41,605 bases of DNA from Oerskovia douganii. Lineage in GTDB: Bacteria; Actinomycetota; Actinomycetes; Actinomycetales; Cellulomonadaceae. The first letter of the stretch is position 1. Every line of letters begins with the position of its first letter. The translations under genes were made by a program, and so were the position numbers. The notes beneath the pieces were generated by a model, which saw nothing but the letters and a program-made list of their open reading frames with translations, searched no databases and was not told the DNA's origin. Positions 23,128 through 41,605 of the stretch are shown piece by piece. The DNA lies in assembly GCF_015142735.1 (NCBI RefSeq), contig NZ_JACSPN010000023.1, positions 23,341-64,945 on the forward strand, read 5' to 3'.

Positions 23128-25329
23128 ATGCGGTACGTGACCGAGCTCCCGTCCGAGACCACGGTCGAGGACCACTGGATACCCCTCGCCGACGGCACGC
23201 GCCTCGCGGCGAGGGTCTGGCGACCGGTCGACCCCACGCCGGTCCCCGCGATCCTGGAGTACCTGCCCTACCGGCTGTCCGACTGGACCGCGCCGCGCGA
23301 CGCGCAGCGCCACCCGTACTACGCGGGCCACGGGTACGCGTCGGTGCGCGTCGACATCCGCGGCAGCGGGAACTCGGACGGGCACCAGGACGACGAGTAC
23401 TCCCCGACCGAGCTCGCCGACGGCGTCGCGGTCGTCGAGTGGCTCGCCGCGCAGGAGTGGTGCAGCGGCAAGGTCGGGATGTTCGGCATCTCGTGGGGAG
23501 GGTTCAACGCCCTGCAGGTCGCGGCCCTCGCACCCGAGGCGCTCGCGGCGATCGTCACGGTCTGCTCGACCGACGACCGCTACGACAACGACGTGCACTA
23601 CACGGGCGGGTCGGTCCTCGCGGTCGACATGCACGCGTGGGCGGCGACCATGCTCGCGTTCTGCTCCCGGCCACCGGACCCCGCCGTCGTGGGCGACCGG
23701 TGGAAGGAGCAGTGGCTCGACCGCCTCGAGCACACCGAGCCGTTCGTCCACACCTGGCTCGACCACCAGACGCGCGACGACTACTGGCGCCACGGCAGCG
23801 TCATCGAGGACTACTCGGCGATCAAGGCCGCGGTCCTGGCGGTCGGCGGGTGGAACGACCCCTACCGCGACACGGTCCTGCGGCTCGTCGCCGCGGGGGA
23901 GGACCCGGCGGACCAGGGATCGAGCGACGGCTCGGCGAACGCCCGCCGGACCCTGGGCGGCCCGGTCCGGGGCATCGTCGGGCCGTGGTCGCACCAGTAC
24001 CCCGACCGCGGCCTGCCGCCCGGCCCGTCGATCGGGTTCCTCCAGGAGACGCTGCGCTGGTGGGACCAGTTCCTCAAGGGCCAGGACACGGGCGCCCTCG
24101 ACGAGCCGGCGCTGCGCGCCTGGATCACGGAGTCCGTGCCACCCGCGACGGTCTACGACGAGCTGCCCGGACGCTGGGTCGGCGAGGAGCGCTGGCCCTC
24201 CCCGCACGTGCGCCCCACGGTCCTCCCGCTCGCGGGAGCGCCCGGCGGCACGGACGACGTCGACGACGCAGCGGTCGCGACCGTGCTGCGCACGACCGCC
24301 CCGCTCGTCAACCGCCTGCCCGCCCACCCGGGCCCGGCGGGCGGTGAGCCGACCGCCCCGGCCGACGTGCCGCCGTCGTGCCTCGTGGCCTCTCCCCAGC
24401 ACACCGGGATCGACGCGGGGCGCTTCTTCCCGTTCGGGAACGACGCGGACCTGCCGCCCGACCAGCGCGAGGAGGACGGGCGGTCCGTGTGCTTCGACTC
24501 GGCCGCGCTCACGCAGCGGCTCGAGATCCTGGGCCGCGCCCGGGTCCGTCTGCGCCTGACGTGCGCGGGCGAGAAGGGGCAGGTCGTGGCGCGGCTGTGC
24601 GACGTGGGCCCTGACGGCTCCTCGACGCTCGTGACCCGTGGCGTGCTCAACCTGTCCGCGCGCGAGGGGCGTGACCGCGTGGTGCCGTGGGAGCCCGGCG
24701 CGACGCACGACGTGACGTTCGAGCTCAGCGGGACCGGGTACGCGGTCGCGCCGGGGCACCGGCTCCGGCTCGCGGTCTCCTCGGCGTACTGGCCGTGGGT
24801 GTGGCCGCAGCCGGGAGGGGCGGCGCTCGCGGTCGCGCCCGCGGGCAGCTCGCTCGAGCTCCCGGTGCACGACGGCGCAGCGCCCGGTGGGCACCCCGTC
24901 GTCACCTTCGAGGAGCCCGAGCAGGCGCCCCCGCTCGGTGTCGTCTACCCGGAGGCCGCGGACCAGCGGCCCGAGCGGCGCGTGGTGCGCGACGTCGCGG
25001 CGGACGAGTGGCTCCTGGAGGTCGACCCGAGGTACGGCGGGACGCGCATCTACCCCGACGGCCTCGAGTTCACCGAGGACGCCCTCGAGCGTTACTGGAT
25101 AGGGCGCGACCCGCTCAGCGCGCGCACGCGCTCGGACTGGAGCGTGCGGTTGCGTCGGCCAGGGGCCACGCCGGCCGACCTCGCGTGGGACGCGAGCATC
25201 GTGACGCGCTCGGAGATCTCGTGCGACGCCGAGCACTTCCACACCGACGACGAGGTCGTGGCGCGTGACGGTGAGACCGTGGTGTTCGAGCGCAGGTGGC
25301 GGCGCAGCATCCGGCGCACGGCAGGCTGA
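23128..25329 (+). CDS. CocE/NonD hydrolase, X-Pro dipeptidyl-peptidase S15-like
   Basis: A 733-aa alpha/beta hydrolase with the S15 architecture. The N-terminal catalytic domain has VRVDIRGSGNSDG, the nucleophile S122 in GMFGISWGGFN, the acid D244 in VGGWNDPY and H289 in GPWSHQYPD. The C-terminal jelly-roll domain has HDVTFELSGTGYAVAPGHR and LAVSSAYWPWVWP. The protein is longer than typical CocE esterases by an additional C-terminal segment of about 120 residues (DVAADEWLLEVDPRYGG onward) often seen in actinobacterial members. There is no signal peptide, so it is cytosolic. The ATG follows GGAGGA. The 108-base gap from the peptide transporter suggests one operon; the enzyme may cleave proline-containing peptides or esters. 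Confidence 0.87.
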   Translation: MRYVTELPSETTVEDHWIPLADGTRLAARVWRPVDPTPVPAILEYLPYRLSDWTAPRDAQRHPYYAGHGYASVRVDIRGSGNSDGHQDDEYSPTELADGVAVVEWLAAQEWCSGKVGMFGISWGGFNALQVAALAPEALAAIVTVCSTDDRYDNDVHYTGGSVLAVDMHAWAATMLAFCSRPPDPAVVGDRWKEQWLDRLEHTEPFVHTWLDHQTRDDYWRHGSVIEDYSAIKAAVLAVGGWNDPYRDTVLRLVAAGEDPADQGSSDGSANARRTLGGPVRGIVGPWSHQYPDRGLPPGPSIGFLQETLRWWDQFLKGQDTGALDEPALRAWITESVPPATVYDELPGRWVGEERWPSPHVRPTVLPLAGAPGGTDDVDDAAVATVLRTTAPLVNRLPAHPGPAGGEPTAPADVPPSCLVASPQHTGIDAGRFFPFGNDADLPPDQREEDGRSVCFDSAALTQRLEILGRARVRLRLTCAGEKGQVVARLCDVGPDGSSTLVTRGVLNLSAREGRDRVVPWEPGATHDVTFELSGTGYAVAPGHRLRLAVSSAYWPWVWPQPGGAALAVAPAGSSLELPVHDGAAPGGHPVVTFEEPEQAPPLGVVYPEAADQRPERRVVRDVAADEWLLEVDPRYGGTRIYPDGLEFTEDALERYWIGRDPLSARTRSDWSVRLRRPGATPADLAWDASIVTRSEISCDAEHFHTDDEVVARDGETVVFERRWRRSIRRTAG

Positions 25330-37536: not shown

Positions 37537-37995
37537 ATGTCGACTATCGACTCGCCCACCATGGAAGAGCTGCGGCGTCTGCGAAGCCGGCGATCGGTGA
37601 CGGACCTGTCCTACCAGCGGGTCTTGCGCGCGCTGGCGGGGGAGATGACGCAGAGCGAGATCGCGGCTCAGCTGCACGTCACCCAGTCCGCGGTGAGCCA
37701 GGCTCTGAAGACGGCCAGGAACGTGGAAGAGGTTCGGCCGGGGTTCTCGGGTGCGAGCCCGTATGAGATCGCTCAGCGGTACGCCGCGGGCGAGCTTGAC
37801 CGCGAGCGTGCGCTGGATGAGCTCGTGCGGTGGCCGTACGACGCGATCGCGCGCAGCGACGGGTACGACGCCCTGATTGTCGACGAGCCCGCGACACACA
37901 CGCTCGAGGAGGTTGTGCGCGCCTACCGCGAGGGCCTGATTGACCAGGACATGTATGTCGCAGTGGGACGGGCGCTCCGGAGCAGCTCGGCGTAG
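37537..37995 (+). CDS. HTH-domain protein of the island
   Basis: A 152-aa protein with an N-terminal helix-turn-helix (YQRVLRALAGEMTQSEIAAQ, LHVTQSAVSQALKTAR) and a helical C-terminal half with YEIAQRYAAGELDRERALDE, VRWPYDAIARSDGYDALIVD and VVRAYREGLIDQDMY. Similar solo HTH proteins sit beside mobile or toxin genes in actinobacteria. GAGGAGG at about 37521-37527 precedes the ATG by a usual distance. A strongly AT-rich stretch (37498-37517, with TAAGAT and TAATAT) supplies a promoter. It could regulate the Fic operon upstream or the RHS locus opposite; this is not decidable here. Confidence 0.78.
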   Translation: MSTIDSPTMEELRRLRSRRSVTDLSYQRVLRALAGEMTQSEIAAQLHVTQSAVSQALKTARNVEEVRPGFSGASPYEIAQRYAAGELDRERALDELVRWPYDAIARSDGYDALIVDEPATHTLEEVVRAYREGLIDQDMYVAVGRALRSSSA

Positions 37996-38129
37996 CCAAC
38001 AGGCTCGAGGTCCTGGCCCGGTGACGTCATGAGGACATCCTGCCCGAAGCCGCCTCGCCTCAGCGTTGACGGGGCGTCCGAACTTCGACGTCCGTGTAGG
38101 GAGCAGGGGCCGGCCCCGCCTCCCGTGGT

Positions 38130-38182
38130 GATGGGACCCCCTGACCCGCCCAAGATGCTGGTGTGAGATCAGGGGCCCCATC
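38130..38182. repeat. imperfect inverted repeat between convergent genes
   Basis: GATGGGACCCCCTGA (38130-38144) faces TCAGGGGCCCCATC (38169-38182) with one bulge and one mismatch around a 24-base loop. It is located between the HTH gene and the immunity-like gene, which converge. It could be a two-way terminator or the joined ends of a lost insertion element. I cannot tell which. Confidence 0.6.
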
Positions 38183-38213: not shown

Positions 38214-38663
38214 TCACGCAGACACTTGTAATATGTGACCACGGAGAAACTCTGCCGTCTTTTTAACCCGAACCCAACTGCCTACCGTGAATTGGAAGCG
38301 GGCGATCGTCGTGCCCGACTTTACCTCAAGCATTGCAAAGGTCGCACTCTCCATTCCCCAGTTCAGGTATCCATAATAGGGCACAGTGGAGATATCTACT
38401 TTGCATTCCGTGGCATCGAATGTGCGAGTGTGCCACCAGCCTCGAAATGCAACACCGCTGTCCGTCAGATAGATTCCAGTTCGCCATCCCGCCGCGAGCA
38501 CCACCCCGCCGAGTATGGCGAGTCCAATCCAGTACCCTTCGCTTGAATCTTCGAACAGGAATCCTCCCAATCCGAGAAGGATAGGCACCGTCCCGACGAG
38601 CGTTGCGAAGATATGGTTGAGAGTGCACGCGCCAGCGACGCGAGATTCTCGGCGATTCGTCAT
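38214..38663 (-). CDS. two-helix membrane protein, probable immunity to the RHS toxin
   Basis: A 149-aa protein starting MTNRRESRVAGACTLNH, with membrane helices at about 17-37 and 44-60, then a cytosolic beta-rich domain (TGIYLTDSGVAFRGWWHTR, TFAMLEVKSGTTIARFQF) resembling a bacterial PH-like fold. AGGAGG precedes the ATG at 38663, and the ATG overlaps the stop of the RHS gene (ATGA). Immediate position after an RHS C-terminal tip and lower GC with codons rare elsewhere (ATA, TTA) are the usual signs of an immunity gene in a polymorphic toxin locus. A membrane-located protector suggests that the tip acts at or in the inner membrane. No immunity family was recognised. Confidence 0.7.
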   Translation of the reverse strand: MTNRRESRVAGACTLNHIFATLVGTVPILLGLGGFLFEDSSEGYWIGLAILGGVVLAAGWRTGIYLTDSGVAFRGWWHTRTFDATECKVDISTVPYYGYLNWGMESATFAMLEVKSGTTIARFQFTVGSWVRVKKTAEFLRGHILQVSA

Positions 38664-41605
38664 CTGGAGAACCTCCTGTTTGTATAGTCGGAGGCGACGA
38701 CGCCACCGAAGTAGCTTCCAAAGCGGACGGTCCGATCGTAGCGTCGGCGGTCCGCGCGGTAGACAGTTCCGTGACGTGAAGCTCCTCGGACCCATCGTGC
38801 CCTATTGGCAACCCCTACCGCTCGAACCGCTTTTCCGGCGACACCTCCAGTCGCCGCGGAAAAGAGTTCAATCGCGGCTTCTCTGCCCCTGCCTTGCCTG
38901 GCATAAGCGGCCGCATATAAGCCTGAGCATGCCGACGCCACAAACCCCCATGTGAATCCACACGCGTCCTTTATCCTCTTGCCCCATTTGCTGTTCGTCA
39001 GCCACCTGGACGACTTGCCGGTTGCCTTCCATAGGCTTTTGCCAGCCTTTTTAATCTTCTTCCAGAATTTCCCGTCAAGGTCCTGCTTGTTAACTGGGTC
39101 TTGTGGGTAGGTGTAGGCAGTGGTGTTTCCGTCGGGGACGGGGTCAACGCTGGTGAAGAGGCCAGTGGTGGGGTTGTAGAGGCGGGCGCCCATGAGGGTG
39201 AGGCCGGTGGTGTCTTGGGCGCGTTCTTTGGCACCGAGCCAGCCGTAGGTGAGGGCGCCGGTTTGGGTGGGGGTGGTGATGGGGTTGCCGTACTCGTCCC
39301 ATGTGCCGAGAGCGCCGAGCTGCAGGGGCTGGTCGATCGCAGGCAGGGTGATGGTGGTGGCGATGGAGCCGATGGGGTCGATGAGGGACAGGGCGGCGGT
39401 GGTCCCGGTGATCTCGAGGCCGAGGTCGCCGGCGATGGAGGCCCCGTACCAGGTTGTGACGGGGTCGCCGGTGCCGGTGGTTTTGGTGGCGTATCCGGGG
39501 TTGTCGCTGGTGTCGGTGTAGTGACGGACCACGCTGGTCGTGTCGCTTCCGTTCACCGTGGTGACGGTGTGGCGGCGTCCTGTGGGGTCGAGAGCGTAGG
39601 TGGTGGTGGTGTCGTTCTGGGTGAGGGTGTGGGCGGCGTCGGTGTCGTAGTACCCGATCGTCAGGTCACCGGCCTCGGCCCCGGCGGGGGTGTCAACACC
39701 GGGCACGGTGGTTTGGCGTCCGAGGGGGTCGTAGGTGTAGGTCCCGGTGATATTCGTGCCAGTTTGGACGCGGTCGGCGCCGTCGTAGTTCCACGCCTTG
39801 TCGAGGTTCGTGACCGGGCCGCTGGTGCAGTCGGTGTCGTGGGTGGTCGCGTTCTGGGTGAGACGGTTGCCGCGCTGGTCGAACCCGTAGGTGCGGGTGG
39901 TGCACGTCTCGCCGGTGGTGTCCGCGACGGTGGTGAGGCGTTCGCCCTTGTCGTAGGTGAAGGTCTGGGTGCGGGTGATCCCGGTGTCCCCGGTCCCCGC
40001 GGTCGAGGTGAGGGTGGTGGTGCGGCCCAGGACGTCGGACTCGATGGACCAGGCGAGCAGGTCTTGCTCCGGGTCGCCGGGCAGGGGTGCGCCGGTGTAG
40101 GTGAGTTCGGTGAGCTCGCCGGCGCGGTCGTAGGTGATGTGCTGGGTGACGCGCCCGCCGAGCAGCGACTGGGTGGTCATGGCGCCGGTCGCGTCGTAGG
40201 TAGCGGTGAATTGCCCCGTGCCGGGGATCTTGACCGAGGTGGTGTACCCGCGGTGTTCGCCCTCGGCGTCGTACCCGTACTCAACGGTCCGGACTGGGTC
40301 TGTGACCTTCGCGACGCGCCCGGCGGTGTCGTATGCGGTTGTCGTGACGGCGCCGTCGGAGTCGGTGTAGCTGGTCGCCCGACCCCAGGCGTCATAGGCA
40401 GTGGAGGTGCGCCCGGTCTCCGCGCCCGCGGTGTTGAGGGTGACGGTCGCGGTGGCCTGTCCGGTGGTGGGGTCGTAGTCGGTGCGTGTGGCGGGCACGG
40501 GCGTGGACCCGGCTACACCTGTGGCCACGGTCGCGACATGGACGGTGCGCCCGGCCACGTCGTACGTCGTGGTCGTAGTCCGCGACGTTGCCCCGAGGGT
40601 CTCCACGGACTCGCGGGAGGCGAGGTAGTAGGAGTACTTCGTCGTGGTCTCGACCGGGAGTGTCGGGGTCGTCTCACCGGTGCGGGTGGAGCAAGCGAGC
40701 CCGGCCCATTCGGGCTTGTTCCCGCAAGTAGCGAAGACCCCGGTCTGGGCGGTGGCGGTGTAGTAGCCGTTGAGGGTGGTGGCCGCGTCGGTGCCGGTCG
40801 CCCCGGGCTTGCGGGTCTCGACGGCCTTGCCCTCGGCGTCGTACCGGGTGGTGGTGACGATGTTCTGGGCGGGGTCGTCCATCACCGTGGTCGACGTGGT
40901 GGCCTGCCCGAGGAACCAGCCCGAGGTCGGGTCGGTGTGCGCGAGCCCGGGCGTGTCGTACCCGGACAGGGCCTGGGACACGACGGGTTCACCGGTCGCG
41001 ACCGGAACAGTCGTCTCGCTGGAGCCGGTGAGAGCGTCGGCCTCGGTCACAGTGACCGTGGTGGGCAGACGGTAAGCGATCCCGGTCTTGGGGTTGACAC
41101 CCTGGTTGGGGGCGCCCTGGTCGTAGTCGGTGTGGGTGTGCTTGCGCACGAGCCCGTTGTTCGTCTCGCGGGCGGGTTCCCACACGTCGGTGACCAGGGT
41201 CCCGGCCGGGGTGAGGACGGTCCCGGCGGCGATGGTGCCGCCGTCGTGGGAGATCGCGGCCGTGGCCTTGATGTCGGGGTTATAGCGGGTGATGGTGGCG
41301 TAGGAGTCGATGACCTCGGTCGCCAGTTGACCTTGATCGGCGGTCAGCGCACGCAGCTGGACGGTGGCCTTCTGGTCGAGCTCGTGCACGGTGCGCCCGC
41401 CGGTGTCGTACCGGGTTGCGGTGACCTGCCAGTCCCCGGCGCCGAACGCGGCGGTGTTGACCACCCGGCCTTCGTTGTCGGTGTACTGCAGGTCCGCGTA
41501 CGGCCAGTCCCCGGCCCCCACATCGCCAGGGGCGGATCCACCTACCTGCTGTCGATCGGCGGAGAACACTGCCGCCCCATAGCTCGGGGGCACCTCTTGT
41601 CCCCA
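38660..41605 (-). CDS. RHS/YD-repeat polymorphic toxin, 5' end outside the window
   Basis: At least 981 codons on the minus strand; the frame is still open at the window edge. Most of it is YD-repeat shell: TTYDVAGRTVHVAT, TAYDAWGRATSYTD, TTAYDTAGRVAKVTD and many more, then the RHS core LTLMGARLYNPTTGLFTSVD followed by DPVNKQDLDGK. After this border (near 39070) a tip of about 135 residues starts FWKKIKKAGKSLWKATGKSS. It has a hydrophobic, small-residue centre (CGFTWGFVASACSGLYAAAY, GREAAIELFSAATGGVAGKA) and a Tyr/Arg-rich end GSYFGGVVASDYTNRRFSR. The tip has lower GC than the shell and no nuclease, deaminase or ADP-ribosyl motif that I can see. The shell encapsulates and delivers the tip to competing cells. 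The stop overlaps the immunity-like gene by four bases. Confidence 0.9.
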   Translation of the reverse strand, partial: WGQEVPPSYGAAVFSADRQQVGGSAPGDVGAGDWPYADLQYTDNEGRVVNTAAFGAGDWQVTATRYDTGGRTVHELDQKATVQLRALTADQGQLATEVIDSYATITRYNPDIKATAAISHDGGTIAAGTVLTPAGTLVTDVWEPARETNNGLVRKHTHTDYDQGAPNQGVNPKTGIAYRLPTTVTVTEADALTGSSETTVPVATGEPVVSQALSGYDTPGLAHTDPTSGWFLGQATTSTTVMDDPAQNIVTTTRYDAEGKAVETRKPGATGTDAATTLNGYYTATAQTGVFATCGNKPEWAGLACSTRTGETTPTLPVETTTKYSYYLASRESVETLGATSRTTTTTYDVAGRTVHVATVATGVAGSTPVPATRTDYDPTTGQATATVTLNTAGAETGRTSTAYDAWGRATSYTDSDGAVTTTAYDTAGRVAKVTDPVRTVEYGYDAEGEHRGYTTSVKIPGTGQFTATYDATGAMTTQSLLGGRVTQHITYDRAGELTELTYTGAPLPGDPEQDLLAWSIESDVLGRTTTLTSTAGTGDTGITRTQTFTYDKGERLTTVADTTGETCTTRTYGFDQRGNRLTQNATTHDTDCTSGPVTNLDKAWNYDGADRVQTGTNITGTYTYDPLGRQTTVPGVDTPAGAEAGDLTIGYYDTDAAHTLTQNDTTTTYALDPTGRRHTVTTVNGSDTTSVVRHYTDTSDNPGYATKTTGTGDPVTTWYGASIAGDLGLEITGTTAALSLIDPIGSIATTITLPAIDQPLQLGALGTWDEYGNPITTPTQTGALTYGWLGAKERAQDTTGLTLMGARLYNPTTGLFTSVDPVPDGNTTAYTYPQDPVNKQDLDGKFWKKIKKAGKSLWKATGKSSRWLTNSKWGKRIKDACGFTWGFVASACSGLYAAAYARQGRGREAAIELFSAATGGVAGKAVRAVGVANRARWVRGASRHGTVYRADRRRYDRTVRFGSYFGGVVASDYTNRRFSR

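Follow-up and report, generated by a model that had tools for sequence, protein, structure and literature searches.

A candidate membrane-acting RHS toxin tip with a two-helix partner protein in Oerskovia douganii

Layout of the locus

The stretch of DNA analysed here, which we call the window, comprises 41,605 nucleotides of one contig of Oerskovia douganii (NZ_JACSPN010000023.1, positions 23,341 to 64,945), and carries at its end the 3′ part of a gene for a rearrangement hotspot (RHS) protein, the C-terminal tip of that protein, and an overlapping gene for a small membrane protein with a pleckstrin homology (PH)-like domain. By analogy with the Tse5/Tsi5 pair of Pseudomonas aeruginosa, we cautiously favour the reading that tip and partner are a membrane-acting RHS toxin and an immunity protein of an undescribed type. 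The source genome consists of 4.25 Mb in 69 contigs, the end of the window being the end of its contig C15, and the kinship listing places it in the same order as the Demequina genome (G353) with which it is compared below. The features of the locus are as follows.

38660..41605, reverse strand: 3′ part of the RHS protein, 981 residues seen; open frame with RHS_repeat (PF05593) and Rhs_assc_core (TIGR03696)
39068..39100, reverse strand: RHS border DPVNKQDLDGK, from the translation
38831..39067, reverse strand: pretoxin hairpin, tip residues 1-79; 49/79 identical to the Demequina tip; the ten-row tip profile also matches a PT-HINT RHS protein on contig C35 of the source genome
38906..38962, reverse strand: first small-residue hydrophobic stretch, tip residues 36-54; Kyte–Doolittle value 1.15; zipper pattern GFTWGFVAS
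38810..38866, reverse strand: second small-residue hydrophobic stretch, tip residues 68-86; Kyte–Doolittle value 1.10; zipper pattern SAATGGVAG
38663..38830, reverse strand: variable cationic tail, tip residues 80-135, likely the toxin proper; 15/56 identical to the Demequina tail; net charge of the last 60 residues +12
38214..38663, reverse strand: 149-residue two-helix membrane protein with a PH-like domain, likely the immunity protein; ATGA overlap, predicted helices, relatives matching bPH_6 (PF10756)
38556..38612, reverse strand: partner membrane helix 1, residues 18-36; Kyte–Doolittle value 2.06
38472..38528, reverse strand: partner membrane helix 2, residues 46-64; Kyte–Doolittle value 1.61
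38229..38471, reverse strand: soluble domain of the partner, PH-like by its relatives only (bPH_6 in 3/9 scanned members, the window protein not being one of the three)

The RHS frame enters at position 41605, where contig C15 ends as well, and the N-terminus of the protein is therefore missing; its stop codon lies at 38660-38662. The TIGR03696 match scored 40.8 bits against a cut-off of 32.5, and the D, P, N, D and G of the border are invariant in all ten rows of alignment A3. C-terminal to the border are the 135 residues of the tip, and an ATGA overlap at 38663 joins the RHS stop to the start of the 149-residue gene. The GC content is 0.53-0.61 over tip and partner, compared with 0.66-0.72 over the RHS core, a dip that is expected for a swapped cassette. 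An RHS core with a conserved border, followed by a variable tail behind a conserved hairpin, is the arrangement that marks a polymorphic toxin. This layout had been described in an earlier, sequence-only reading of the window, from the border and the unnamed tip to the overlap, the two-helix protein and the GC dip, and it is real in each of these respects.

Membrane proteins beside tips of this kind

Tips built like that of the window, with the hairpin and a short tail, stand beside genes for predicted membrane proteins. All eight independent tips of this kind that were counted (those of the source genome, G353, G750, G651, G582, G100, Kribbella and G523) come with a partner in which one or more membrane helices are predicted, and in seven of the eight the partner has at least two; for other RHS tips of at least 80 residues the corresponding values are 23/83 and 13/83 (Fisher's test, p = 9e-5 and 7e-5, respectively). 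Membrane helices were called with a Kyte–Doolittle hydropathy window at a cut-off of 1.6, not with a trained predictor. The excess of membrane partners stands at cut-offs of both 1.4 and 1.6, and that of partners with at least one helix remains at 1.8 (7/8 against 17/83) and at 2.0 (6/8 against 17/83). With one tip taken per genome, a comparison made for two or more helices at the 1.6 cut-off only, the base rate is 8/49 (p = 2e-4).

The base set was read, as tip plus next gene, at 103 RHS cores in a sample of 198 genomes of the order, and the family tips came from the order and class samples together with a Kribbella contig. The RHS-core set numbered 104 matches, with three of the source genome and that of G100 (handled separately) left out, and is also without G180 and two of G192 (weak fragments); of the 104, G045 (contig edge) was left out of the reading. 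Subtracting from the 103 cores four tips that extend past the contig end and four that were dropped (three shorter than 30 residues, and the fused-frame family member of G142) gives 95 tips, of which 83 have at least 80 residues and 12 are shorter; the locus L161 was kept among the 83. G713 was counted with G523, the two being near copies. Excluded from the family were G142 (partner fused in frame), G307 (decayed tips), G015 (contig end) and G408, a weak match with an unclear partner whose first-ranked frame has one helix and whose second has none. Partners were picked by one automatic rule in family and base set; for the comparison of cut-offs the starts of the family partners were set by hand, and the helix counts at 1.6 were unchanged.

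Hairpin, tail and the families of tip and partner

Judged from profile matches, the two hydrophobic stretches of the tip are a pretoxin hairpin and not the warhead. The same segment precedes PT-HINT domains in two proteins of G621, in one of G746 and in the C35 RHS protein of the source genome, the last of which is matched by the ten-row tip profile with an expectation (E) value of 3.7e-6. The predicted partners of these four homologues are without a membrane helix, that of G746 being uncertain, and the contrast with the short-tail tips has p = 0.007 when L161 is taken as a ninth such tip. Unlike the four, the window tip has no Hint match. Zipper patterns of the form GxxxGxxx(G/S/T) or (G/A/S)xxxGxxxG occur twice in the window tip and twice in the C35 protein. 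Two RHS proteins of the source genome (G000:C35:11110-11520 and G000:C66:75012-75245) have predicted partners without a membrane helix; the PT-HINT domain was confirmed by Pfam for the C35 protein and judged by eye only for the C66 protein.

Conservation falls behind the hairpin, at a boundary that was set after alignment: the identity with the Demequina pair is 62% over the hairpin, 27% over the tail and 26-28% over the partner. Tail and partner diverge alike while the hairpin stays conserved, as expected for a toxin–immunity pair, and because conservation falls in the last ~56 residues of the tip, we regard these as the polymorphic part and likely the toxin proper. In the eight family tips the last 60 residues have a net charge of +7 to +12, and they exceed those of 31 tips with soluble partners in amphipathicity (p = 0.003) and in basic character (p = 0.03), although three measures were tried and the values are uncorrected.

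Neither tip nor partner gave a match above the curated cut-offs of Pfam or NCBIfam, or any match in PADLOC, and sequence comparison with PDB chains yielded chance-level matches only (E = 0.25 or worse). A known enzyme toxin was therefore rejected as the identity of the tip; a match to a known nuclease or other enzyme family was looked for in these searches and not found, which bears out the earlier statement that the tip holds no known toxin motif. Searches for the partner in viral contigs, for the tip in plasmids and for the tip profile in viral contigs returned nothing.

The tail might instead be a small basic enzyme, probably a nuclease, acting in the cytoplasm, with the hairpin carrying it across the membrane and the immunity protein merely tethered there, its PH-like domain on the cytoplasmic side. 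Elsewhere the hairpin does precede Hint domains that have other toxins behind them, including one G621 toxin with a sub-threshold GIY-YIG match beyond its Hint domain (E = 0.002; 18.6 bits against a cut-off of 22.6), and L161 couples the hairpin and a basic tail to a soluble partner. The positive N-terminus and acidic loop of the window partner also suggest, by the positive-inside rule, that its PH-like domain faces the cytoplasm. However, no nuclease family was matched, and membrane partners accompany 8/8 of the counted tips; in addition, the last 60 residues of the family tips, counted without a control, are poor in His (0-4) and Glu (0-1), with 0-3 Asp and no Cys. We consider a nuclease unlikely, while giving it some weight.

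The genome searches for relatives of the tip scored no more than the best 9 or 10 candidates in each genome, and their counts are lower bounds. The tip was matched in at least four of the 396 genomes of the order sample, and a three-row profile in at least 10 of the 394 genomes of the class sample, PT-HINT proteins among them; both counts include the source genome. A search of genome contigs with the tip gave Demequina and Kribbella matches. The Demequina relative has this tip too, at 50% identity over 125 residues, with a relative of the window partner encoded after it, and tip and downstream gene travel together both in this pair and in two G307 arrays that hold a decayed tip plus partner; relatives of the partner also occur without the tip. 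Both G307 tip copies are broken by in-frame stops, the middle part being changed in one of them, and both partner frames beside them are open. The ratio of nonsynonymous to synonymous substitution (dN/dS) for the partner is 0.45 between the G307 copies (dS 0.10) and 0.17-0.19 between these and the Demequina partner, where dS is saturated, both values standing without a significance test. A further two-helix protein adjoins each copy in the G307 arrays (L022 and L024), and the one scanned matches bPH_6 at 20.9 bits against a cut-off of 22.

Such copies raise the question of whether the window cassette is itself decayed, or its partner an unrelated neighbour, so that there would be no working toxin–immunity pair. 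The RHS gene is cut by the contig end, the G307 copies are decayed, and what is probably left of the start of a DUF1016 gene is found directly past the immunity gene; yet the two window frames are open and overlap at the ATGA, and Demequina has the same pair, so we hold this explanation to be very improbable. The probable remnant occupies window positions 38000-38141; contig C67 carries an open DUF1016/YhcG nuclease gene whose 5′ region is 86% identical to it. Next to the cassette, at 37537-37995 on the forward strand, is a gene for a 152-residue protein with a helix-turn-helix domain, for which Sigma70_r4 scores over its cut-off and HTH_5 at its cut-off.

Several other loci stand outside the counts. 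In G142 (L023 / L013), tip and membrane protein lie in one continuous frame, followed by another RHS core piece; this frame is either a natural toxin–immunity fusion or a decayed cassette. Outside the source genome, a phylum-wide search with the hairpin profile gave at least six marginal loci in at least five genomes (E = 4e-5 to 9e-4), none of which entered the counts. The matches of L059 and L062 extend hardly past the border, L063 seems to be unrelated, and the status of L060, L061 and L065 is uncertain. The partner rule used above predicts membrane partners for L061 and L062 but not for L059, L060 or L065. Another class of RHS tips is set apart by a length of only 50-73 residues (L098, L101, L106, L114, L115, L127, L129, L138, L150, L158, L166 and L168), with hydrophobic small-residue stretches peaking at Kyte–Doolittle values of 1.5-2.26 and, in 10/12 cases, a next protein with predicted membrane helices. 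The peak of the window tip, 1.15, is below that of every one of these 12, and they look like better candidates than the window tip for pore-forming RHS toxins.

The two predicted membrane helices of the 149-residue partner (2.06 and 1.61) are what is looked for in an immunity protein of the Tse5 type. Nine proteins of the partner alignment, that of the window included, were scanned for bPH_6; three gave a match (best E = 4e-4), but the window protein did not. Of the earlier description as a two-helix membrane protein with a PH-like domain, the helices thus hold directly and the domain through relatives only. Among the relatives found, the nearest, at 35-37% identity, are chromosomal proteins from the same genus that stand alone; the RHS-linked Demequina partner has 26%. 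In four of the eight genomes whose partner relatives stand apart from RHS cores (G001, G156, G164 and G128), the surroundings, judged by eye, resemble ordinary metabolic and regulatory regions. The four RHS-linked partners do not form one group on a weakly supported tree, which is also compatible with a single origin. Because the relatives stand alone and the RHS-linked members are ungrouped, a family of resident membrane proteins may have given rise to the immunity gene, perhaps on more than one occasion.

The same two observations, the greater closeness of the standalone relatives and the ungrouped RHS-linked partners, would suit a tail that hits a particular membrane protein or lipid without forming a pore, with an immunity protein that acts as a decoy or shield drawn from a resident two-helix PH-domain protein. 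No target is indicated, though, and the RHS-linked partners may still have a single origin; we consider this explanation improbable. A more specific proposal, in which a ~56-residue cationic membrane-active peptide mounted on the shared hairpin is blocked by a resident-family PH-domain decoy of the membrane component under attack, seems to us distinctly improbable.

Several results weigh against a membrane-acting toxin, the reading that we nevertheless favour. The mean Kyte–Doolittle values of the two tip stretches, 1.15 and 1.10, are under the membrane-helix cut-off of 1.6, and in peak hydrophobicity the eight family tips are no different from the 31 soluble-partner tips, which have 80-175 residues (p = 0.26). 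Since the hairpin is common to PT-HINT toxins and its hydrophobicity is ordinary, the stretches cannot carry the inference of a membrane toxin, and they were rejected as the toxin itself. The sequence-only reading had argued for membrane action from these stretches as well as from the membrane-embedded protector; the stretches are present but fail as a sign, and it is the link with membrane partners that stands. That link has its own weak points: the two-helix excess is weak at a cut-off of 1.8 (4/8 against 13/83, p = 0.04) and gone at 2.0 (0/8 against 12/83), and the partner of L161 is soluble even though its tip combines the hairpin (E = 7e-8) with a basic tail. There is no general support for placing all the tails in one family, leave-one-out tests on nine tails having recovered only those of G651 and G582 at E < 0.001. 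Nor do the partners of the eight tips share one common profile: a partner profile found those of the source genome, G353 and G307, all of which are in it, and weakly a second G307 protein (E = 0.005), and missed those of G750, G100, G651, G582, Kribbella and G523. Moreover, in three genomes of the same genus the partner relative lies on another contig than the RHS cores or more than 140 kb from them, and five further genomes have a partner relative and no RHS core match. The small gene therefore does largely occur without RHS neighbours at the level of its family, in eight genomes, an outcome that the sequence-only reading had named as adverse, while the membrane link persists.

Proposed action and related systems

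The architecture, the relatives, the statistical link to membrane partners and the open partner frames next to decayed tips are observations, whereas toxicity, membrane depolarization and direct binding between toxin and partner are inferred in the following scheme for a membrane-acting toxin. The RHS shell would shield the tip, by analogy with Tse5/Tsi5 and with the ionophores of contact-dependent growth inhibition (CDI). The protein would be exported by Sec, as extrapolated from relatives with a complete frame, whose N-termini resemble, by eye, Sec-type signals or anchors; this likeness suggests Sec export rather than type VI delivery. Once the tip was released at the border, the tail, helped by the hairpin, would act at the cytoplasmic membrane of a competitor, most probably inserting into it and collapsing its potential. 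The two-helix PH-like partner would meet the toxin in the membrane of the producer itself and block it there.

In the available text of two reports (PMC9637101, PMC10684867), Tse5 is, like the window protein, an Rhs protein with a C-terminal toxin of ~150 residues without predicted enzyme activity, and its immunity protein Tsi5 shares with the window partner the presence of two predicted membrane regions. Tse5, a pore-former, has been shown to act at the cytoplasmic membrane, where the window tip is predicted to act. Tse5 differs in having a PAAR-like N-terminus and a type VI system, whereas the window relatives look Sec-exported by eye and the N-terminus of the window protein is off the contig. 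The window partner has an added PH-like domain compared with Tsi5, and Tse5 chains in the PDB set gave no match to the ten-row tip profile. The available text of PMC10684867 gives, for the end of Tse5-type Rhs cores, an aspartyl protease motif DPXGX19DPXG or DPXGX18DPXG; the window has DPVPDGNTTAYTYPQDPVNKQDLDG, in which DP occurs twice, though motif and spacing are not exactly those described.

The ionophore toxins of CdiA resemble the window tip in that a polymorphic tip combines an entry domain with a membrane-acting domain, and their CdiI proteins resemble the window partner as small, hydrophobic, very variable two-helix immunity proteins (PMC11630599, available text). In the same text CdiI proteins have 72-100 residues, with no mention of a soluble domain, compared with 149 residues for the window partner; delivery and entry domains also differ, and the ionophore domains are predicted five-helix bundles. 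The glycine-zipper toxins TspA, TelE and EsxX share with the window tip C-terminal small-residue zipper patterns, according to the part of PMC12744356 available. They are delivered by a type VII secretion system, and the zipper pattern of the window lies in the shared hairpin and recurs in the C35 PT-HINT toxin. The immunity protein of TspA is reportedly membrane-bound, as is predicted for the window partner. Relatives of the partner match the PH-domain family bPH_6 (PF10756), and most of those found are located away from RHS genes; the window partner differs in being RHS-linked and in having no Pfam match itself.

The kind of weapon, an RHS membrane toxin with membrane immunity, is thus known. 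In the available portion of the survey by Zhang and co-workers (PMC3482391), the membrane-type entries consist mainly of Tox-WTIP, a toxin domain, together with two immunity families of two-helix proteins, Imm-CdiI and Imm17. We found no description of a PH-domain membrane immunity protein among the papers listed in a literature search that was mostly open-access and without bioRxiv preprints, the one paper listed for a bacterial PH domain together with toxin and immunity protein being an Exiguobacterium annotation, and because of this result we hold the type of protector, within that scope, to be new inside a known kind.

If the favoured reading of a membrane-acting toxin is true, it would add a probably Sec-exported actinobacterial branch to the membrane-attacking Rhs toxins, and would suggest that one pretoxin hairpin serves enzyme and membrane warheads alike. 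The parallel divergence of tail and partner points to a possible start of the toxin proper, and makes a ~56-residue peptide directly testable, while the standalone relatives of the immunity protein offer a way into the origin of membrane immunity proteins.

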